The notes beneath the pieces were generated by a model. The model searched no databases. It had not been told where the DNA came from and saw only the letters and a program-made list of their open reading frames with translations. A stretch of 64,000 nt of DNA from Amphritea sp. (GTDB taxonomy: Bacteria; Pseudomonadota; Gammaproteobacteria; Pseudomonadales; Balneatricaceae): the NCBI RefSeq assembly GCF_016744155.1, contig NZ_JADGEW010000001.1:363714-427713 (forward strand), given 5' to 3'. Below, one piece after another: positions 1-9,019 of the stretch; position 1 is the first letter of the stretch; every line of letters begins with the position of its first letter. A program made the position numbers and the translations under genes.

Positions 1-284
1 TGGGATCGCGCACCCTCAACTAAAGCCGTTATGCAGTTGGTTAACGCTGGGCCGTGGGTCACGGTAGCCACACCGACCTTGCCTGATATTTTTGAGTACG
101 CCAGGGCCATTAACACAGAGCTACCTTCGATGGCTGCGGGTATAAATTTCCCCCCGCAGTGACGCACGTAATGATCGACCATAAATAGATTGGCATCTCC
201 CATGAGACCAAACATAGTATCGATGTCGTGATCGAGTACTGACTGTGCGATGGATTGGTAAACATTGGATGTATCGTTATTCAT
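1..284 (-). CDS. Thiamine-diphosphate-dependent enzyme, acetolactate-synthase-like (N-terminal part, cut by window edge)
   Basis: The first 94 codons of a minus-strand gene start at ATG 284 and run off the left edge. The translation has the layout of the pyrimidine-binding domain of ThDP enzymes: an opening that reads FGLMGDANLF, then a conserved glutamate in IEGSSVLMALAYSKISGK, then GVATVTHGPALTNCITAL. In this family the glutamate activates the thiamine cofactor. The substrate (pyruvate, benzoylformate, oxalyl-CoA or another 2-oxo acid) cannot be told from this fragment. The gene is divergent from an Lrp-type regulator across about 150 bases, so that regulator probably controls it. The class is clear; the specific enzyme is unknown. 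Confidence 0.8.
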   Translation of the reverse strand, partial: MNNDTSNVYQSIAQSVLDHDIDTMFGLMGDANLFMVDHYVRHCGGKFIPAAIEGSSVLMALAYSKISGKVGVATVTHGPALTNCITALVEGARS

Positions 285-434
285 GACGACCCTTAGCCTT
301 TCTAACAGCGACAACTAAATTTAATGACTATATTAAGCAGTTTAAGTGGAATGGGTTTTCTTTTTTTTACCATTTTTTCCATATAAATGGTTAAATTATT
401 CGATAATTAGTTGTTGAGAGGAAATATACTTCAA

Positions 435-890
435 ATGCAGTTAACTCCACGAGATCGATTGATTTTAAAGTTGCTAGCGACAGATAGCCGCACACCCAAC
501 GCCGACATTGCAGATCGCGTGGGAATTTCGCATTCGGCCTGTTGGAGGAGAATCAAGGCACTCGAGGAGGCTGGAATTATAAGCCGATACGGTATCGTAC
601 TAAACGAGGATAAGGCGGGTCTGAATTTTCGCGCCATTGTGATGATAACCCTATCCAAACACGAGCCAGAGTCTGGATCTGTGTTTGAACAAGCCATGGC
701 AGAGTGTGATGCTGTTGTGGATTGTTTCGCGACAACCGGCAACGATGACTACAATATGCACGTCGTCTGCGAGGACATTCAGGCCTACAACGAATTCTTG
801 GAGAAGTCCCTATTCAAATTGGGTTTGGTAGAAACCGTTCAAACCAACGTCATACTCAAGCAAATAAAACGGCGTGGATTAGGGTTTTGA
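435..890 (+). CDS. Lrp/AsnC-family transcriptional regulator
   Basis: This 151-residue protein has an N-terminal winged helix-turn-helix (about residues 5-55, including NADIADRVGISHSACWRRIK) and a C-terminal RAM-type ligand domain (about 65-145, with the GNDDYNMHV stretch). That is the full length and order of the Lrp/AsnC family, whose members bind amino acids and control their metabolism. I chose ATG 435, where the family match begins, with GAGAGGA upstream. A TTG at 411 would add eight unsupported residues. It is divergent from the ThDP-enzyme gene and is likely its local regulator. The first composite repeat begins 15 bases after its stop codon. Confidence 0.88.
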   Translation: MQLTPRDRLILKLLATDSRTPNADIADRVGISHSACWRRIKALEEAGIISRYGIVLNEDKAGLNFRAIVMITLSKHEPESGSVFEQAMAECDAVVDCFATTGNDDYNMHVVCEDIQAYNEFLEKSLFKLGLVETVQTNVILKQIKRRGLGF

Positions 891-905
891 TAAAAGCAGT
901 TTCTG

Positions 906-1378
906 GATCGCAACTGAGAGTGCGTGCTTGCTCGACGCGGCTTCGCCGCTTGCTAGTTGCTCGAAAAAGCAAAAGAAGGCATTAGCTCTCATTATTTGTT
1001 GTAGGAGCCGTGTTCTCACGGTGATTTAGGTTCTGATATTTGGGTGGTTTATTTCATTGCCTAAGTGATCCATTACTTTCTGTTCCGCTCTCGCCGATCG
1101 GGTCAAGACCTTTCAACAGCTAAAGGTCTTAACAATCTAAAGCCGCGCCCGCTGTTTGGTCGGCTTCGCCGACTTCCCTGCGCGTTTCGCTTAGAAACGG
1201 CGCTGTGGAACTCGCCCAAAAAACGGGCTCAGACAGTCCTCGCTCAATCCGTTTCCAAGCTGCAATGCTCGGCTGCACAGAGGGGAACTCATCCGTGCCA
1301 GCCTGTTAATCAGCAAATTTGAATGATTTTCATATACGGTGAATGAGTGTGTTAATCAATGACTCTGACCCATTGATT
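906..1378 (+). repeat. Composite interspersed repeat, copy A (complete)
   Basis: This stretch holds no credible gene and consists of four recognisable blocks. Block 1 (906-970) begins GATCGCAA and contains the hairpin GCGGCTTCGCCGC and then TTGCTCGAAAAAGC. Block 2 (999-1027) is a REP-like palindrome, TTGTAGGAGCCGTG and on. Block 3 (about 1064-1330) is a structured core with the hairpin AAGACCTTT/AAAGGTCTT, the hairpin GTCGGC-TTC-GCCGAC, and a long stem of 1189-1200 against 1249-1260. Block 4 is an end hairpin AATCAATG/CATTGATT at 1354-1378. Copies B, C and D recur to the right in the same orientation. Open frames across it are by-products of the repeat. Confidence 0.9.
999..1027 (+). repeat. 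REP-like palindromic element
   Basis: TTGTAGGAGCCGTG followed by CTCACGGTGATTT forms an imperfect hairpin (CCGTG/CACGG) of the REP type familiar from Pseudomonas, where the consensus also begins GTAGGAGC and ends GCGAT. It is a single unit here; paired units occur at 2890-2958 and 4909-4959. Confidence 0.75.
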
Positions 1379-1433
1379 GGATTCTAGGTTCGGTTTATTT
1401 ATCTGCAAAGTACAAAACCTGACTCCTGGAAAC

Positions 1434-2312
1434 TCAACGGGGTGTTTTCCAGGCATTGACGATATAGCTGGCTAAGGCATTACCCGCAGGACCCAGTTCC
1501 TTTCGATGTTCGAAGAGTAATTGATATTCTCCAAGCTCAGGCAGGTCCCATTTAGCATCTACCTGAACAAAGGGGGCTTTCATATGACTTTGTGGTAGTG
1601 GTGCAATGGCCAGGTCTGCCTCCATCGCTGCTTGCATGCCAGAGCTTTGGTCGCAGGCATAGGCGATACGGTATTCAATACCTTGTTTGTCTAATGCTTC
1701 GAGGGCCATCGTACGCCAACAGCAGCCACGGCTGGCAACAGCGAGAGGAAGGGGGTGGCTTTCTACCGCCAGACCACCGCTTCGGGTAGCCCAGATGAGT
1801 GGCTCGGTAAATACAACCTCACCACGCCTGGGATCCTGGCCTACATTTCCAGCCGTTAACAACGCCATATCAAGCTCACCCGAGTCTAATCGTGACAACA
1901 GTTCTGTACTGCTACCAGCGATGACATTAACGGCTACCGCGGGATGAGACCGGGCGAACTGTGCCAGCACCCTCGGCAGAACGCTGTTGGCGATATCTTC
2001 TGGAGACCCAAAACAGACCGTTCCTTCGATGCTGGGGGCTACAAACTGGCTGACGGCCTCTTGATTTAGCTTCAGTAAACGACGGCTATAGCTGAGTAAT
2101 ACCTCGCCTTCCGGGGTTAAACGAACCTGTCTCGCTTCGCGTAGAAACAAGCTTTTACCCAGGGTTTCTTCAAGACGCTTGATCTGCATGCTGACCGCGG
2201 CCGGAGAGCGAAAAACCTGCTCAGCCGCGCGGGTAAAGCTACCACTTTCTGCAATTGCGACAAAAGATCTTAATAGGTCGAACTCTAATAATGGAGGCGA
2301 GGTTGCAAGCAT
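1434..2312 (-). CDS. LysR-family transcriptional regulator (LrhA-like)
   Basis: The 292-residue protein has a LysR winged helix-turn-helix at residues 8-65 (FVAIAESGSFTRAAEQVF, then SMQIKRLEETLGKSLF) and a substrate-binding effector domain. Its FGSPEDIANSVLPRVLAQF segment resembles LrhA-type members, which have the same SPDDYAD-like motif after the linker. I placed the start at ATG 2312 because the HTH begins there; an open frame continues 34 codons upstream without family similarity. The DUF1127 gene at 2473 is divergent. LysR/DUF1127 neighbour pairs are common in proteobacteria, so DUF1127 is its probable target. The effector is unknown. Confidence 0.85.
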   Translation of the reverse strand: MLATSPPLLEFDLLRSFVAIAESGSFTRAAEQVFRSPAAVSMQIKRLEETLGKSLFLREARQVRLTPEGEVLLSYSRRLLKLNQEAVSQFVAPSIEGTVCFGSPEDIANSVLPRVLAQFARSHPAVAVNVIAGSSTELLSRLDSGELDMALLTAGNVGQDPRRGEVVFTEPLIWATRSGGLAVESHPLPLAVASRGCCWRTMALEALDKQGIEYRIAYACDQSSGMQAAMEADLAIAPLPQSHMKAPFVQVDAKWDLPELGEYQLLFEHRKELGPAGNALASYIVNAWKTPR

Positions 2313-2472
2313 AGCGATAACCAGTGTTAAGTTTTTCTTAATCCTTGCTTTAGTATTTTTAGTTTGTTTAAACAATGTCTGGGGGCCAGTATCTATTCCG
2401 AGGTCGCGACTCATTCAACAGTTTTAATCATTTTCACCGCTGGAGGCTGGTGGTGAATAGAGGAGTATCGCT

Positions 2473-2760
2473 ATGTTGTGCCATGAAATGAGGACTACAA
2501 AAACATCGACCACTATTCTTCAATCAATTGAAGATCGGGTCAGCTCCAGGCTTCGTTCGTTGCCGTTCATTCAGGCCTTAAAAGATTGGTATGCAGGCTA
2601 TTGCCGCCGACAGGTTTTAATCGACTTGCTTCGTTATGATGATCACATACTTGAGGATATGGGCCATACCCGGCAGGAGTTATTAGCGATATCGAAGCTG
2701 CCTTTGAGTACCGATGCTCACGAGGTTTTAAGGGAGTTGAAGGCGCTTAGATCGCAATGA
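2473..2760 (+). CDS. DUF1127 (YjiS-like) domain protein
   Basis: This 95-residue basic protein carries the DUF1127 signature in its second half: WYAGYCRRQVLIDLLRYDD, then HILEDMGHTRQELL. That is the small arginine/leucine-rich motif of YjiS-like proteins, some of which take part in phosphate, carbon or virulence regulation through RNA or protein binding. No biochemical role is set for this one. AGGAG at 2461-2465 supports ATG 2473; a second ATG at 2488 is possible. The stop codon lies inside the conserved first bases of composite repeat B (GATCGCAATGA), so the insertion of the repeat may have reset the C-terminus. Confidence 0.8.
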   Translation: MLCHEMRTTKTSTTILQSIEDRVSSRLRSLPFIQALKDWYAGYCRRQVLIDLLRYDDHILEDMGHTRQELLAISKLPLSTDAHEVLRELKALRSQ

Positions 2761-3140
2761 AGAGGCGTGAGTTGCTGGTGGTTCGTTGCTCGAAAAAGCA
2801 ACAGAGGAGGTGGGTTTAAGCAGAAGTTTCTTAACAATTATTGTGGGAGACGTGTCCTTCCCCAGATTCTAGGTTCGGTATATTGTCGTAATCGCGATGA
2901 GGGCATCGCTCCTACAGGAAGGCTGGCTTGTTGTAGGAGCCGTGCCCTCACGGCGATTCAGGCTCTGATGTTTGGGTGGTTTATTTCATTGCCTAAATGA
3001 TCCATTACTATTTGTTCCGCTCTCGCCGATAGTTTCTTGTGAAAAGTGAGGGGATATGTCCGTGCTAGACCATTCTTCAGTCATCTTGAATGGTTTGCTA
3101 ATTTTAAGACAGACTCAAGTAAAAGGGCTCTGATCCCTTT
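2750..3140 (+). repeat. Composite interspersed repeat, copy B (core deleted internally)
   Basis: It has the same order as copy A: block 1 remnants (GATCGCAATGAAGAG, TTGCTCGAAAAAGC; 2750-2803), a REP pair (2890-2958), then the left edge of the core (GTTCCGCTCTCGCCGATAG near 3015). The core jumps straight from AAAAGTGAGGGG to ATGTCCGTGC, leaving out the hairpins and variable stem found in copies A, C and D. The flank between the REP and the core (TTTGGGTGGTTTATTTCAT) is nearly identical to copy A. The right end is diverged, so the 3140 boundary is approximate. Confidence 0.8.
2890..2958. repeat. Inverted REP pair (BIME-like)
   Basis: AATCGCGATGAGGGC...GCTCCTACA (2890-2916) faces TTGTAGGAGC...CACGGCGATT (2931-2958). 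The two units are in opposite orientation with a short spacer, the layout of bacterial interspersed mosaic elements. Confidence 0.75.
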
Positions 3141-3215
3141 AACTCCCTATAACCTGCCGTTGTTACTGGGAGGAAGGGTGGCAACGATTACACTGTAAGC
3201 GGCTGCTCCGATAGG

Positions 3216-3256
3216 AAAAAATGCACTGAACACCACTGCTCGTCGGTGGTGTTCAG
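3216..3256 (-). terminator. Intrinsic terminator for the minus-strand thioesterase gene
   Basis: Read on the minus strand, a perfect 11-bp stem CTGAACACCAC/GTGGTGTTCAG (3256-3226) is followed four bases later by six T's (3221-3216). It lies about 105 bases beyond the stop of the thioesterase gene at 3361. Confidence 0.7.
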
Positions 3257-3265
3257 GCTAAGAAA

Positions 3266-3290
3266 TGGAACAACAGCAGGCGTTGTTCCA
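3266..3290. other. Perfect 9-bp hairpin TGGAACAAC/GTTGTTCCA
   Basis: A second perfect hairpin sits ten bases from the terminator stem, inside the 3' region of the thioesterase transcript. It has no T-tract. It could protect the mRNA 3' end or pause polymerase. No other feature is visible in 3140-3360. Confidence 0.5.
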
Positions 3291-3360
3291 CAGGCTGATC
3301 GGAGGGGTGTTGAAGCGCCTCTTAATTACTTGTAAGTCAAAGCGCTCTGGTCGAAGAGTG

Positions 3361-3810
3361 TTAGTCAAATATCTCTGGCTGTATCGGCTCCATCCCTAGT
3401 ATCAGATCCCGATAGTGTTGTGGTACTGCGGCTTTGCAGTTCTTTTCATAATCCACGCATACGACGACAGCATCGCCTTCTGCGGCTACCGCATTGTGCT
3501 CTGGGCTCCAAACCAGATGTTCCATAGTAAAGCGATCTTCTTCCAGACGAGTGATCCGGGTCGCTGAGATCACGTTGCCAGGAAAGGTCAGGGGGATCCG
3601 ATAACGGATCCGGCTGTCTCTTAAGATCGGGCCAATACCGCTCTCTTTCATTACGTCCAGATACTCACAATTTCCGAAATATGCCATGCGGGCACTTTCA
3701 AACCAGCGCAGATAGACCAGATTGTTCACGTGTTGAAAGGCATCCATCTCACCCCATGCAATGGGTATCTCCAGTTGTACCGGGAATCGTTCTAGAATTT
3801 CGCTACCCAT
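3361..3810 (-). CDS. Acyl-CoA thioesterase, 4-hydroxybenzoyl-CoA thioesterase (hotdog) family
   Basis: The 149-residue protein has the single hotdog domain of the YbgC/FadM type. The diagnostic motif AWGEMDAFQHVNNLVYLRWFE lies at residues 18-38; its Asp (MDAF) matches the catalytic aspartate of 4HBT enzymes, and HVNN precedes the long central helix. These enzymes hydrolyse acyl-CoA thioesters in the cytoplasm; the chain length is not predictable here. A paralogue at 17109-17522 shares the motif. The gene is divergent from the LysR regulator at 3990, which probably controls it. A terminator follows at 3216-3256. Confidence 0.88.
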   Translation of the reverse strand: MGSEILERFPVQLEIPIAWGEMDAFQHVNNLVYLRWFESARMAYFGNCEYLDVMKESGIGPILRDSRIRYRIPLTFPGNVISATRITRLEEDRFTMEHLVWSPEHNAVAAEGDAVVVCVDYEKNCKAAVPQHYRDLILGMEPIQPEIFD

Positions 3811-3895
3811 AATGGCCTCATGTTTTTTTCATGTTCTACCCGATCTATTTAGGCTGAATTTTAAGAATAAGTGAAATTTTTAATTATTATTCTTT

Positions 3896-3914
3896 CTATA
3901 AATTTAATTTATAG
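3896..3914. promoter_or_regulatory. Perfect 19-base palindrome, probable LysR operator
   Basis: CTATAAATT-T-AATTTATAG is a perfect 9-bp inverted repeat about one base. It sits between the divergent thioesterase and LysR genes and contains the T-N11-A pattern of LysR sites. A second palindrome, AGCTTAAGCT flanked by GATATC repeats, lies at 3943-3968 near the regulator's own start. Confidence 0.55.
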
Positions 3915-3989
3915 TAGTGATGAAAAGAGATGATTTCTCATCAGATATCGCTGAGCTTAAGCTGATATCAAGTCATTGGAGGCGGTTTG

Positions 3990-4868
3990 ATGGAAATTCG
4001 ACAGATACGTTACTTTCTGGCGGTACAGGAAACAGGCAGTTTCACTAAAGCATCGGAGAAAATGTTTGTGACTCAACCGGCGCTTTCAGCCGCAGTTAAA
4101 ACGCTGGAGCAGGAGCTAGGTGTAGAACTGCTAAGGCGTAGCCATAAGCAGGTTACTTTGACGCCGGCCGGCCGACGGTTTCGGGACCGGGCCTTTGCAA
4201 TACTAGCTGAATGTAATGCTGCCAAGAGCGAACTGAAGGCGGAACAGCATCCCCGTCAGCTACGTATAGGCGTGCTGGATACCTTGAATACTCCACCGAT
4301 TAATCAGCTACTGCATGAGTTTCATACCAGTTATCCGGAGATAGAACTGCACCTTCATTCCGGAAATAAGCTGGAACTGGCTAATAAGATAGGACAGAAC
4401 AAAGCAGACCTGCTGTTGACCTCGCTGTCCGGGGAAGACAGCTCAGAAACTCAGTTGCCACTCTATCAGGAACGATTCCAGTTGATGGTATCGCGACAGC
4501 ATGAACTGGCTAACCGGGCCAGTGTGCGGCTGGCTGATCTACACGGTTTGCCCTTCGTCCTGCGTAAAAACTGTGAAGTTTTGAACGAGGGAAAGCGGGT
4601 GTTTTTGGCGGAGCAGGCGCAGCCACATATTACCTGTCGCACCGATAATGATTCATGGGCACTAACCATGGTGCGGAACAACCTGGCCGCAGCAATACTG
4701 GCTGAAACGGTAATAGAAGAAGGTACGGTCAGTATTCCTATCGTGGATTTTGGTCTGGTGAGAACGGTCGCTTGTGTCTGGCGTGAGCATTCAGAACAGG
4801 AGACTGTACAAACATTTACCGCCTTTGCCGCCCAGGATAGCTGGCGAGGGTTGGCTAAGGTGGTTTGA
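3990..4868 (+). CDS. LysR-family transcriptional regulator
   Basis: This 292-residue protein begins with the classic LysR helix-turn-helix (MEIRQIRYFLAVQETGSF, then FVTQPALSAAVKTLEQELG, residues 1-58). An effector domain follows from about residue 90 (LRIGVLDTLNTPPINQLL). GGAGG at 3978-3982 places the start at ATG 3990, seven bases downstream; the in-frame TTG just before is not needed. It is divergent from the 4HBT thioesterase gene, with a perfect palindrome between them, so it most likely regulates the thioesterase and itself. The inducer cannot be read from the sequence. A strong REP-type hairpin follows at 4909-4959. Confidence 0.9.
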   Translation: MEIRQIRYFLAVQETGSFTKASEKMFVTQPALSAAVKTLEQELGVELLRRSHKQVTLTPAGRRFRDRAFAILAECNAAKSELKAEQHPRQLRIGVLDTLNTPPINQLLHEFHTSYPEIELHLHSGNKLELANKIGQNKADLLLTSLSGEDSSETQLPLYQERFQLMVSRQHELANRASVRLADLHGLPFVLRKNCEVLNEGKRVFLAEQAQPHITCRTDNDSWALTMVRNNLAAAILAETVIEEGTVSIPIVDFGLVRTVACVWREHSEQETVQTFTAFAAQDSWRGLAKVV

Positions 4869-4908
4869 CTAACGACTTTAGAGAATAAAGATGCTTTATC
4901 TGTCGGGG

Positions 4909-4959
4909 GGGGGCACGGCCCCTACAGGGCGGCTGGCTTGCTGTAGGGGCCGTGCCCCC
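4909..4959. repeat. REP pair forming a perfect 19-bp inverted repeat
   Basis: GGGGGCACGGCCCCTACAG (4909-4927) and its exact reverse complement (4941-4959) are separated by 13 bases, followed by GGCGATTTTTTT. The GC-rich stem with a T-tract a few bases later could also terminate the upstream LysR transcript. Confidence 0.8.
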
Positions 4960-5410
4960 ACGGCGATTTTTTTGGTTTCTATCCTGATGGTTAGTCAGTT
5001 CACTTCCTTGCAGCAGTAATTCATTATTTCTTGTTCCGCTCTCGCTGAGCGTTTCTTATGAAAAGAGAGTAGACCTTTCAACAGCTAAAGGTCCTAACAA
5101 TCTAAAGCCGCGCCCACTGTTGGGTCGGCTTCGCCGACTCCCCTGCGCGTTTCGCTTAGAAATGGTCTGCGACAGGCGAAGCCTGAACAGCTTCAGCTGG
5201 CCCGAAGGGTAGACGCTTGCGGCTATAAACTCGCCCAAAAAATGGGCTCAGACAGTCCTCGCTCAATCCGTTTCCAAGCTGCAATGCTCGGCTGCACAGA
5301 GGGGAACTCATCCGTGCCAGCCTGTTAATCAGCCAATTTGAATGGGCTTCATTTTTAAGGCACACTCAGGTAAATGGATATGTAAATCAAAGAGGGTTAT
5401 CCCATTGATT
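4909..5410 (+). repeat. Composite interspersed repeat, copy C (with extra hairpin domain, no block 1)
   Basis: This fills most of the gap between the LysR gene and the FAD oxidase. It lacks block 1. The REP pair (4909-4959) is followed by the core (about 5033-5340), which starts GTTCCGCTCTCGCTGAG and contains AGACCTTT/AAAGGTCC, GTCGGCTTCGCCGAC and the long stem 5154-5165 against 5268-5279. Compared with copy A it has about 60 extra bases inside that stem, themselves forming hairpins such as CAGGC-GAA-GCCTG and CCC-GAA-GGG. The end hairpin (5385-5410) is diverged. The remaining bases to 5500 form the oxidase leader. Confidence 0.88.
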
Positions 5411-5500
5411 TAGAAAGCCTTCCATGGAGCGTTGCCATCGGCTGCGGGTTCGATCTTTTAAATCATATTTCTAACGCGATAAATTTCAAGGACGCTCAAG

Positions 5501-6844
5501 ATGATCACCCTAAACACTTCTATTGCGTTTAATGACACACTGCCTGAAGAGGTCGACGTGGTGGTTATTGGCGGCGGCGTCATCGGTATATTCTCCGCCC
5601 TGAATATTGCGCGTTCAGGCCTTAGCGTTATGGTCATCGAAAAAGGTCGAATTGCCGGTGAGCAGTCGTCACGAAACTGGGGTTGGATCAGGCAGCATGG
5701 TCGTGATGCTGCAGAACTGCCCATCATGATGGAAGCGTCGCAGCTCTGGGAATCGATTGATAAGGAAGTTAAAGGCCGCACCGGGTTGAAGCGTGTGGGG
5801 GTGATGTATCTTTCGCAAACCGAAGCGGATCAGGTGAAACGCGAAGAGTGGCTGAGTATTGCCGCAGCCCATAGCGTTGATACCGTAGCATTGACTAGCG
5901 CTCAACTTGAGCAACATATTCAACTCGACCCGCAAACAAAAAACTTTTGGGCCGGGGCGACCTATACCGCCAGTGATGCCCGGGCAGAACCCTGGGAGGC
6001 GATTCCTGCTGTAGCAGAGTTAGCCCACAGCGAAGGTGTTCTTATCCGAGAGAATTGCGCCGTGCGTACACTGGATATCGAAGCCGGCCAAATCACCGGG
6101 GTTATTACTGAGGCTGGCCGCATCAAAACATCTCAAGTTGTCGTCGCGGGGGGCGCATGGTCATCACTGTTTCTGCGCCGCCACGGTATCAATATCCCGC
6201 AGTTGTCGGTACGCGCATCCGTGGCCAGAACAGCCCCGCTTAAAAGCATTACCACCACGAGTTTTGCGGATAAAAAACTGGCGGTGCGCCGACGTAATGA
6301 CGGGGGCTACTCCCTCGCACTCACCGATTCCCATGATCACTTTATAGGCCCTGATTCGTTTCGTTTATTACCTAAGTGGCTAAAAACGGGACTACAAAAT
6401 CTCCACGAAATCAGGCCCTGGATGAACGAAGTCGCTAACTCACCGGATGCCTGGCGAGTCGAACGCCACTGGGCGGCCGATGAGGTAAGTCCTTTTGAAC
6501 TCACCCGCATGCTCGACCCGGCTCCTGCCAAAGGTAAAGTCAAAGTGATGCAACAGCGCTTTGCGCAACGCTTCCCACAAATTGGCGAGCCTAAAATACT
6601 GGATGCCTGGGCGGGAATGATTGATGCGATGCCTGATATTGTGCCCATCGTTGATAGGGTGCCTGATTTTGAAGGGCTTATCGTTGCCACAGGGATGAGT
6701 GGGCATGGTTTTGGTATTGGGCCGGCGTTTGGGCGAATTGTTTCTCAGATTGTGAATAGGGAAGAGAGCGAGCATGATTTGTCGCGGTTCCGATTCTCTC
6801 GTTTTTCAGATGGTAGTGCGTTAGATATTGGGCCCAATGTTTAG
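5501..6844 (+). CDS. FAD-dependent oxidoreductase, DAO family (D-amino-acid dehydrogenase/glycine oxidase-like)
   Basis: The 447-residue protein opens with a dinucleotide-binding fold for FAD (VDVVVIGGGVIGIFSALNIA, residues 18-37; acidic strand end VIEKGR at 45-50). It then has the SSRNWGWIRQHGRD segment typical of one branch of DAO enzymes. The C-terminus has the second FAD contact (DAWAGMIDAMPDIVPIVD, then ATGMSGHGFGIGPAFG). These enzymes oxidise amino acids or secondary amines to imines; the substrate is not predictable. AAGGAC at 5488-5493 supports ATG 5501. It stands alone between composite repeats C and D. Confidence 0.88.
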   Translation: MITLNTSIAFNDTLPEEVDVVVIGGGVIGIFSALNIARSGLSVMVIEKGRIAGEQSSRNWGWIRQHGRDAAELPIMMEASQLWESIDKEVKGRTGLKRVGVMYLSQTEADQVKREEWLSIAAAHSVDTVALTSAQLEQHIQLDPQTKNFWAGATYTASDARAEPWEAIPAVAELAHSEGVLIRENCAVRTLDIEAGQITGVITEAGRIKTSQVVVAGGAWSSLFLRRHGINIPQLSVRASVARTAPLKSITTTSFADKKLAVRRRNDGGYSLALTDSHDHFIGPDSFRLLPKWLKTGLQNLHEIRPWMNEVANSPDAWRVERHWAADEVSPFELTRMLDPAPAKGKVKVMQQRFAQRFPQIGEPKILDAWAGMIDAMPDIVPIVDRVPDFEGLIVATGMSGHGFGIGPAFGRIVSQIVNREESEHDLSRFRFSRFSDGSALDIGPNV

Positions 6845-6856
6845 GGGCCGTAGCTA

Positions 6857-7372
6857 GACCGCAATGAAGAGCACATTGCTTGCTCGACGCGGCTGCGCAG
6901 CTTGCTAGTTGCTCGAAAAATCGTAAAGCTGAAGAAGAGGGCATTGGCTCTCTTTTTTGTTGTTGTAGGAGTCGTGCTGATATGCCCTCTGGGTACCTGC
7001 GTCGATTTCTTTTCTGATGGTTTTCTGTTCTTTTCATTGCCGCTGTAATTCGTTTCTTTCTGTTCCGCCTTGCTGGGCGGGTCAAGACCTTTCAACAGCT
7101 AAAGGTCTTAACAATCTAAAGCCGCGCCCGCTGTTTGGTCGGCTTCGCCGACTACCCTGCGCGTTTCGTTTTCCAATGACATGGGAAAAACTCGGTTGCT
7201 TCGCGCCCTCAAACAGTTCCCCATGCTATTCATTGAAAAACTCCAATGCTCGGCTGCACAGAGGGGGAATAAGTCCGTGCCAAATTGTTAATCAGCCCAT
7301 TTGAATGGTTTTCATATTTAAGGCACACTCAGTGAATGGGTATGTGAATCAATGACTCTGACCCCATTGATT
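6857..7372 (+). repeat. Composite interspersed repeat, copy D (different variable stem)
   Basis: It starts 13 bases after the oxidase stop. Block 1 (6857-6920) is close to copy A, but its hairpin reads CGGCTGCGCAG. A terminator follows at 6936-6958, a degenerate REP (TTGTAGGAGTCGTG) near 6963, then the core (about 7062-7310) and the end hairpin AATCAATG/CATTGATT (7347-7372). The outer core matches copy A closely, but between GCGCGTTTCG and CAATGCTCGGCTGCACAG the sequence is unrelated. That replaced part still makes a 12-bp stem (7168-7179 with 7230-7241). Confidence 0.9.
6936..6958 (+). terminator. Intrinsic terminator after the FAD oxidoreductase
   Basis: AGAGGGC-ATTG-GCTCTCT (one G-T pair) is followed directly by five more T's. 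It lies inside block 1/2 of composite repeat D, so the repeat supplies the terminator. Copy A has a decayed version (GGCATTAGCTCTC) without the T-tract. Confidence 0.7.
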
Positions 7373-7400
7373 TTGGATTAAATACATAAGGATTTGTTGA

Positions 7401-8860
7401 GTGTCTAAATATCATTTAGAACATGCTAAATATTCAAAATGGCTTAAGTCCCATACTTTTGAAAATTGTAAGTTAGACCGGAAAGAGTATGGTCACTTTA
7501 TTGCAGATTATATCTCCGGTGAAAAGGATGGCTTCGTACTAAATATTAATGGCGCATGGGGTTCAGGTAAGACTGAATTTCTAAAACGCTTGTATACACT
7601 TTTCATAAATAAAAGAACTCCTACTATCTACATAAACGCTTGGGAAAGTGATTTTTCAAAAGATCCTCTGACAGTCGTGACAAGTGAGCTTTTAGAACAA
7701 TTATCTCTTTTTAATGAAAACATTGGTGAGGATCTCAAGACAGTAAAGTCGCTATTAGGAAGAGTGATTAAGGGCTCTTTCTATGGAGCGGCAGGATTCA
7801 CAACACATAAACTTCTTGGTGATGCCACAATTGGGTCTGACTTGGCTAAGGAGCTATTAAACGATGAAAGCTCTATAAAGTTTATAGATGAATTAAAAGG
7901 TTCTTACCTTGTGCAGACAAGTGCTATCTCTGAGATTCGGATTCAGCTTGGTCAATTAGCTGAAGTCTTAGGAAATACTCGAGAAGCACAGCTGCCAGTA
8001 ATTGTTTTAGTTGATGAGCTTGATCGATGTCGACCTGACTATGCAATAGAAATGCTGGAGGTGATTAAACATTTTTTCCATACAAAAAACTTTGTTTTCA
8101 TAATTGCCACTGATACTAAACAATTATCTAATTCTATGAACGCAGTATACGGAAACAAGTTTGATTCTATAAAATACTTGCGCCGTTTTTTTGATAGAGA
8201 GGCAACTCTACCTAAGCCGGATATAGAACACTATTTAGACATTAAAAATTTCAGCCTTGAAGAGGCTAATAGTTCTCCAAATATAACTATCGCCCCAGGC
8301 TTGGTAACTGATAACGCTCAGACCTTGCAGAAATATGTTAGCTATTTCATCCGGGCATATGATTTAGAGATTCGTGATCTAGACCAAATTCTTGCAAAGC
8401 TTGAGTCATGCTTAAGATCAATTATTTCGACCGGAGAGAGAGACAAAAGCCCTCAGTTAATTGATTTTTTATGCTGTTAACGGCACTTCTAGAACACCAT
8501 TTATCACTTACTAGTTTCGATGAAAGAACAGATAAGAACAAACTTCAAAGCGAAGTACCCAATGATATTCCAATTGTTTATGATTTAAGCATATCGACTA
8601 TAACGTCGATGAGCCTACTTTTTTCAAGCTTACACCATCACAACGCTGTGCCTGGGTTTAGCCGGCGTCAAAATGATAGATATAAAATGGTCGGTTTTAA
8701 TGACTTTGAGGATCGTTCGGGTAACCTCTCAAATGATAAAAGGGAATTTTTAAATAGTTATATTAATGCTTTGAATACTCGTTCTTCTAACGCATCGACA
8801 AAGCACTGGCTTTGGTCTAATTATCAGAAGCTAGTTATGCTTGCAGGTACGATCGATTAA
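7401..8860 (+). pseudogene. KAP-family P-loop NTPase, split by a frameshift at a T6 run
   Basis: The first part (7401-8480, 359 codons) has Walker A GAWGSGKTEF (51-60) and Walker B VIVLVDELDRCRPDYAIEML (200-219), the KAP signature. The frame ends in SPQLIDFLCC at a run of six T's (8465-8470). The next frame (8471-8860) continues as MLLTALLEHHLSLT. One more T would join them as LIDFFMLLTALLEHH, giving one protein of about 486 residues, a natural reading. KAP NTPases include phage-exclusion PifA of plasmid F and are frequent on mobile DNA. The gene is clearly AT-richer than its neighbours, consistent with acquisition. It may be truly inactive, a sequencing error, or rescued by slippage. Confidence 0.82.
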
Positions 8861-8924
8861 TTGGAAGCAGAGCGCTGACGAGTCATTATTGTTTATAACT
8901 TATTGTTTGGTAAAACTTACACAA

Positions 8925-8948
8925 GGTTCGATCCCCGTCATCCCACTA
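8925..8948 (+). other. tRNA 3'-end-like fragment (possible integration scar)
   Basis: GGTTCGATCCCCGTC followed by ATCCCACTA resembles a T-loop (TTCGATC) plus the 3' acceptor strand and a CCA-like end. It looks most like valine or alanine tRNA tails, but I cannot fix the identity. The T-stem pairs only in its two inner pairs and no 5' tRNA half precedes it, so it is not a functional gene. It sits between the KAP gene and the conserved chromosome, where an att-site remnant would be expected. Confidence 0.35.
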
Positions 8949-8990
8949 AACACTGTAAAAAAGATCTCCTCAGGATGCTCTTCCCCAAAC

Positions 8991-9019
8991 AAAAAAAGAG
9001 AGCCCCAAGGCTCTCTTTT
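8991..9019. terminator. Bidirectional intrinsic terminator
   Basis: AGAGAGCC-CCAA-GGCTCTCT is flanked by a run of A's on the left and T's on the right, so it can end both the plus-strand KAP transcript and the minus-strand transcript from 9294. Confidence 0.85.

Follow-up and report, generated by a model that had tools for sequence, protein, structure and literature searches.

Several described bacterial systems combine accessory genes with recurring sites or conserved flanks. In the minimal mobile elements of Neisseria, different genes lie between the same conserved flanks and are exchanged by homologous recombination; to our knowledge, no repeats or mobile-element ends lie at their edges. 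In sedentary chromosomal integrons (integrase IntI), structured attC sites of about 60 nt separate small accessory genes, toxin-antitoxin pairs for example. Pseudomonas and Xanthomonas seem commonly to have long structured repeats similar to the one described here. In the dif modules of Acinetobacter, neighbouring pdif sites (XerCD) are inverted. Here we describe a structured repeat of about 220 nt, hereafter the core, found several times near the start of a 64,000-nucleotide stretch of an Amphritea sp. genome (the window; contig C29:363714-427713 of a 4.15-Mb draft assembly, 99.57% complete). The dif modules are described as small accessory modules flanked by recombination sites (PMC13141974, PMC6449649, PMC12907356). 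Miniature inverted-repeat transposable elements (MITEs), REPINs and the intergenic repeats of Pseudomonas are repeated, hairpin-rich and tail-biased elements, several families of which have inverted arms (PMC2718517, PMC10969869); among them is R200, 320 bp long and present in 47 copies in strain SBW25 (PMC2718517).

The core shares something with each of these. As in minimal mobile elements, differing genes lie between the same conserved flanking genes; unlike there, a conserved structured repeat stands at the edge and recurs at many loci. The resemblance to sedentary chromosomal integrons lies in structured sites between small accessory genes, but the present site is a multi-helix core of about 220 nt, often in inward-facing pairs and at scattered loci. 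Small modules flanked by sites also recall the dif modules of Acinetobacter, although a dif site is much shorter than the core, and 28-bp XerC/XerD sites were not found at module edges: the best dif-like match in 113 cores was 16/22 positions against 15 in random sequence. With MITEs, REPINs and Pseudomonas repeats the core has in common that it is intergenic, repeated, hairpin-rich and tail-biased. It differs from them in its length, in covariation over several helices and in the kilobase cargo between its arms. Inward pairs of cores are common, but their outer ends are not sharply defined. R200 of P. fluorescens could be related. No paper was found to contain two of six core sequence words, and no description of the element was recognised among the matches listed by concept-level literature searches. 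The core has a conserved structure and a biased orientation, and the cargo next to it differs at orthologous slots.

A structured core is the unit of repetition

The best-conserved portion of the repeat runs from GTTCCGC to GTGCC. Its predicted structure comprises 38 base pairs, 30 of which show two-sided compensated changes among 22 diverse cores (alignment A1, taken from 113 full-length cores: 21 of the 23 sharing under 80% mutual identity, plus the first copy of the window). Pairing was kept in 92.6% of alignment cells as compared to 71.3% in shuffles, and the covariation score was 0.572 versus 0.168; none of 500 shuffles reached either value. Sliding the partners by 1-3 columns lowered pairing to 30-45%. 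Whole stems swap their sequence yet stay paired, as in GACCTTT/AAAGGTC versus GACTTTT/AAAAGTC. Searches with the Rfam 15 covariance models gave no match up to E 1 in window positions 1-9000 or in five related loci. Among mismatches in 91 cores, read on the written strand, A-C outnumbered G-U by 87 to 21 (sign test over pairs, p 0.003), an excess that would suggest folding of the opposite strand. This asymmetry is only suggestive, since it weakened when similar cores were thinned (p 0.03 below 80% identity and 0.12 below 70%) and vanished below 65% (6 versus 5). Terminator-like and promoter-like sites over positions 880-7500 occurred at shuffle level. Spurious small open reading frames (ORFs) run inside the core, for example at window positions 1065-1322 and 7017-7304, and could be annotated as proteins. 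In the Aliamphritea group (loci L096-L106), a systematic 3'-end difference sets left cores apart from right ones within pairs, in the manner of handed ends; an example is CAGAAGGGG..CCGTGCC versus CATAAGGGG..GGTGCC.

The original prediction had taken the repeat as an ordered composite of four blocks acting as one: a gene-end hairpin block (block A), a repetitive extragenic palindrome (REP)-like hairpin, the structured core and an end hairpin, AATCAATG/CATTGATT. That view had to be abandoned, as each of its other parts (block A, REP and AATCAATG hairpin) also occurs outside the composite. When window positions 900-1395 were compared with the genome of origin, 29 matches were obtained, of which 16 were block A alone, one was block A with the REP and no core, and 12 included some core or leader. 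The exact 14-base motif of the end hairpin was present at five places in this genome, and for two of these, on contigs C21 and C33, there was no core match. Matching with two mismatches was tried and dropped (58 matches against 40 in a reversed control), so that only the five exact matches were used. Block A and the exact motif are no more than about 200 bases apart at C33:92896-93133, and no core was found between them. At the sbcC locus, the REP-like hairpin is common to the genome of origin and to the congener G015, from which core and cargo are absent. Given this separate occurrence, block A, the REP and the end hairpin look like independent gene-end elements that share spacers with the core. 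The unit is the structured core of about 220 nt.

Cargo differs beside conserved cores

The gene names UDG (uracil-DNA-glycosylase-like gene), sbcC, valS, hemB, hisF, parvulin and DEAD helicase were read from translations, not from family searches. At several orthologous loci, hisF-hemB and valS among them, the same flanking genes (about 75-94% identical) accompany conserved cores with unrelated genes, or none, beside or between them. Between hisF and hemB, the congeners G001, G002, G003 and G012 keep an inward pair with flanks 85-94% identical, enclosing four unrelated cargos: a 142-amino-acid (aa) ORF, a DUF1493 protein, two small ORFs and a DUF6119 protein. The left core of this pair adjoins the 5' end of hemB and not a gene tail. 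No core was seen at this position in the 13 other congeners, several of these stretches being incomplete. Both hemB and hisF look frame-split in G002 (L097), consistent with a low completeness estimate of 78 for that genome. At a second locus of the same four genomes (flanks 76-90% identical), two carry a BRCT protein, one has small ORFs and the remaining one an HNH nuclease.

After valS comes a single orthologous core and then a 270-aa ORF, a 203-aa ORF in G012 (split in G002) or no ORF; in all three cargo-bearing genomes the cargo lies on the 3' side of the core and begins directly after GGTGCC. Elsewhere, G001 carries an empty pair (110 bp), G002 and G012 filled pairs, and G003 the right core only, and a further locus contains YefM/YoeB in G003, a DKNYY protein in G012 and small ORFs in G002. 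The genome of origin offers two more cases: its sbcC locus has a core and a 190-aa ORF, both absent from G015, and an inward pair, one core of which is partial, encloses a 4.2-kb island with an AbiU2-like gene, core and island being absent from G005. Pfam was searched with 28 proteins from core-bounded intervals or slots and PADLOC with 10 proteins; transposase or integrase matches were found for none of the 28.

Distribution and orientation of the core

Of 274 Gammaproteobacteria genomes scanned with a covariance model, 60 contained the core at E 1e-5 or better; they represent 50 of 222 genera. Many copies were present per genome, and copy numbers are lower bounds since at most nine candidates per genome were scored. 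Outside this class, a Variovorax paradoxus replicon carries two inward-facing cores (91.8 and 91.7 bits) adjoined by an annotated HigB-family toxin and a regulator; a Burkholderia stretch checked with the model gave no match. Weaker matches came from Aeromonas (43.4 bits) and Pasteurella (14.1 bits). A scan with the core-motif pattern returned 101 stretches, Amphritea balenae and Aliamphritea spongicola among them. The profile confirmed a core in 84 of the 91 that entered the orientation set; the seven others, including stretches from Bacteroidetes, Solirubrobacterales and Thorarchaeota metagenome-assembled genomes and from Mesorhizobium and Amnibacterium, are probably chance matches.

The orientation set comprised 207 loci, 11 overlapping loci having been excluded beforehand; 158 loci contained 240 core matches of at least 25 bits. 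Neighbouring cores faced inward in 47 cases, outward in 2 and the same way in 33, the orthologous loci of four Aliamphritea-group genomes being counted separately in this first tally. Recounting without these genomes and without two further overlapping loci (one such pair involved the window itself) left 33 inward, 2 outward and 19 co-oriented neighbours. These loci are no random sample because most were chosen for holding a core. The gap within inward pairs was below 200 bp in 23 and 200-6000 bp in 24. A co-oriented array had been put forward as the characteristic layout; as inward neighbours are commoner, the direct array of the window is the less typical form. In a separate tally, with a 60-bit limit and a similar but not identical exclusion list, a gene 3' end lay on the 5' side of 92 of 135 cores.

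The window array and its locus in related genomes

The window had been described as carrying four repeats of one orientation, roughly every 2 kb. The shared orientation stands, as do the stretches at about 906-1380, 2760-3050, 4909-5411 and 6857-7372, except that the second is incomplete: near-complete copies number three, plus one 5' fragment (copy 2). The spacing is there as well but merely equals the module lengths. The full order of four blocks does not run through the array, the core of copy 2 being truncated and copy 3 beginning at the REP, with no block A found. All copies lie on the plus strand, and a fifth in the same orientation is located at C29:362050-362284, 1.4 kb upstream of the window. 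The three window cores scored 196.7, 195.2 and 133.8 bits (E 6.1e-63 to 2e-42), the two highest belonging to the model's own alignment.

Copy 1 consists of block A (915-968), which also occurs alone elsewhere in the genome, a REP-like hairpin (1000-1026, with a terminator-like match at 1007-1022, at shuffle level), the core (1082-1299; cmsearch 1082-1285, 195.2 bits, the 3' end being placed by sequence reading) and the end hairpin (1354-1378), separable from the core. The module that follows (1434-2760) contains a LysR gene on the minus strand and a 95-aa ORF on the plus strand; it is 90% identical to a block of G015. Copy 2 (2890-3050) has a REP palindrome at 2890-2958 and the truncated 5' end of a core without a 3' half (profile match 2965-3029, 19.5 bits), and its stretch also holds a block-A-like part. 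Beyond it, at 3361-4868, lie a thioesterase gene (minus) and a second LysR gene (plus). Copy 3 is made up of a REP palindrome (4909-4968), a core whose long stem carries an additional insert at its tip (5033-5318; cmsearch 5052-5304, 133.8 bits) and a diverged end hairpin, AAATCAA/TTGATTT (5384-5411), and precedes a FAD-dependent oxidoreductase gene (DAO; 5501-6844, plus). In copy 4, block A with a terminator-like stem at 6930-6959 (6874-6960 together) is followed by the core (7062-7281; cmsearch 7062-7266, 196.7 bits) and the end hairpin AATCAATG/CATTGATT (7347-7372). A module of a KAP NTPase ORF and an overlapping ORF in another frame (7401-8860, plus) comes last. The KAP ORF matches PADLOC profile PDC-S20 over only positions 12-331 of 464; because of this and the overlap the candidate defence gene may be frame-broken.

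The repeats do separate unrelated modules, namely AsnC/Lrp, LysR with the 95-aa ORF, thioesterase with LysR, the FAD oxidoreductase and the KAP NTPase, although the DUF1127 label given earlier to the 95-aa ORF found no counterpart in Pfam. In the genome of origin, five modules lie between UDG and a DEAD-box helicase gene; these two genes are on one contig in G015, G008, G005, G007, G011 and G014 as well. In G015 the interval holds LysR and the 95-aa ORF, other genes and core pieces; in G008, two cores and other genes; in G005, one core and a 115-aa ORF. Further genomes can be compared on one side: G004 reads UDG, core, FAD and then the contig end; G013, LysR, core and ORFs including a helix-turn-helix regulator; G010, FAD, core and a PIN_8 protein; and G016, FAD, a core fragment and Lamassu LmuA/LmuB (L148 11561-14422). 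Around FAD, similarity between G010 and the window extends from 20 nt past the copy 3 core through the copy 4 core. In the single core of G004, the 5' side resembles the upstream copy and the 3' side resembles copy 3. The core of G013 is like copy 3 as far as the central stem's loop and like copy 4 just after, before it diverges. These single cases suggest that the two cores are hybrids of window-type copies. A recent transfer of thioesterase and LysR involving G008, suspected from protein identities of 98.0% and 94.5%, was dismissed because the DNA is only 81% identical.

The claim that the repeat guides gain and loss of modules thus keeps its descriptive half: neighbouring modules are gained, lost and replaced in relatives, with some change-overs at or inside the core. 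No amplification of cassettes was seen.

Discussion

The reading we favour, and to which we would give close to an even chance, is that the core forms the edge of an exchangeable gene slot, the content of which is swapped by homologous recombination in cores and flanks. Cores sit mostly at gene ends, often as a pair with 5' sides outward and GTGCC 3' ends inward. Their 3' side would be the slot, and its accessory genes include toxin-antitoxin pairs, nucleases, defence genes and small orphan ORFs. Cores and flanks persist, whether a slot is empty, has been filled or has received new content. We infer that DNA from related cells would recombine within the cores and the flanking genes by ordinary homologous recombination, exchanging the adjacent cargo. 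On this view, half-pairs and serial insertion would give rise to direct arrays such as that of the window, and these arrays could collapse between cores. A role of the fold in protecting the site, or in making a single-stranded form recombinogenic, is speculation. What this reading retains of the original cassette idea is module exchange beside cores; it gives up the exact composite and no longer takes direct arrays to be the rule.

A number of observations weigh against it. Recombination in the flanks alone can explain orthologous exchange, and the preference for gene tails could produce part of the inward bias. No cargo could clearly be seen to have moved from one core locus to another. Alignment of the sbcC site of the genome of origin with the empty site of G015, the one site compared, revealed neither a clean junction nor a target duplication. 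Between UDG and the helicase gene, G007, G011 and G014 have different genes and no core was found; on the one side that can be compared, G009 has other genes and no core, and G006 has FAD and an LmuB-like gene (L146 5524-7434), again with no core. Since genes vary in these five genomes without it, the core is not required for gene change, and, to judge from the Lamassu genes of G016 and G006, the FAD/DEAD-helicase region houses defence genes whether or not a core is present. Finally, as G004 and G013 are drafts of 490 and 290 contigs, their hybrid cores could be due to misassembly.

Part of this evidence would suit a core that is simply a structured element of gene tails, RNA or DNA, that ends transcripts, insulates or signals 3' processing, tails being safe landing places for cargo with no causal link between the two. 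Such a role seems to us rather unlikely. It would account for the frequent gene 3' end on the 5' side of the core, for the strong covariation and for the core-free exchange in the same region of five congeners. However, it sits poorly with terminator-like and promoter-like sites at shuffle level, with the hisF-hemB left core adjoining the 5' end of hemB and with valS cargo on the 3' side of the core in each of the three genomes having it; the mismatch asymmetry, a weak argument, does not favour a gene-strand RNA either. The inward symmetry of pairs at both short and long spacing, the systematic difference between left and right cores in the Aliamphritea group and the many copies per genome could instead mean that core pairs are the ends of a non-autonomous mobile element (a long-armed MITE or REPIN-like) served in trans by a transposase or recombinase. 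We consider this unlikely: the single empty-site comparison, which gave no clean junction, revealed no target-site duplication, the outer ends of pairs are poorly defined and none of the 28 proteins searched matched a transposase or integrase. In the genome of origin, the search for a REP-associated tyrosine (RAYT, Y1) transposase, the one transposase family searched genome-wide, gave a single match of 22.1 bits, under the cut-off of 23; the enzyme could have been lost or could act from another genome. Slightly less probable again is that the core is the folded single-strand site of an undescribed cassette system of Gamma- and Betaproteobacteria that does not depend on integron integrases, in which a putative enzyme would insert and remove cargo at the GTGCC end and inward pairs would constitute a reusable slot.

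Two further accounts have little left to recommend them. Chance juxtaposition of unrelated gene-end repeats and accessory genes, which we hold to be very improbable, was to show itself by independent blocks and a fixed order of modules among relatives. Block A, the REP and the end hairpin are indeed independent gene-end elements, but the modules keep no fixed order, the core is retained at orthologous slots while cargo changes, and the orientation of neighbours is strongly biased. The notion that the array is a degenerate integron, with cores as attC sites, appears more improbable even than chance. Small orphan genes, toxin-antitoxin cargo and a structured site would agree with it, and 7 of 17 genomes of the genus have an integron integrase above the 265-bit cut-off. 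Yet the best match in the genome of origin (a draft, of the completeness given above) scored 74.5 bits, neighbouring cores mostly face each other and the core profile matched none of seven fetched loci, six of which are integrase loci. The integron reading was rejected on two tested features, integrase presence and attC-type repeats. G015 has a separate cassette system, with an integron integrase and direct repeats of about 64 nt between small ORFs (L342 9743-13904); these repeats are unlike the core. In G008 and G016, the loci inspected contained no family of attC-like repeats at least 40 nt long.

The core is present in many environmental bacteria, and the slots that it marks, with differing accessory genes in related species, hint at a way of shuffling genes that has no name as yet. 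Even if the link between core and cargo is passive, a widespread and strongly covarying structure without an Rfam match needs explaining. If cores guide exchange, this would explain how defence and toxin-antitoxin genes come to lie in scattered chromosomal slots with no visible integrase or transposon, and the core would provide a sequence handle for such slots in about one fifth of the Gammaproteobacteria genomes sampled.

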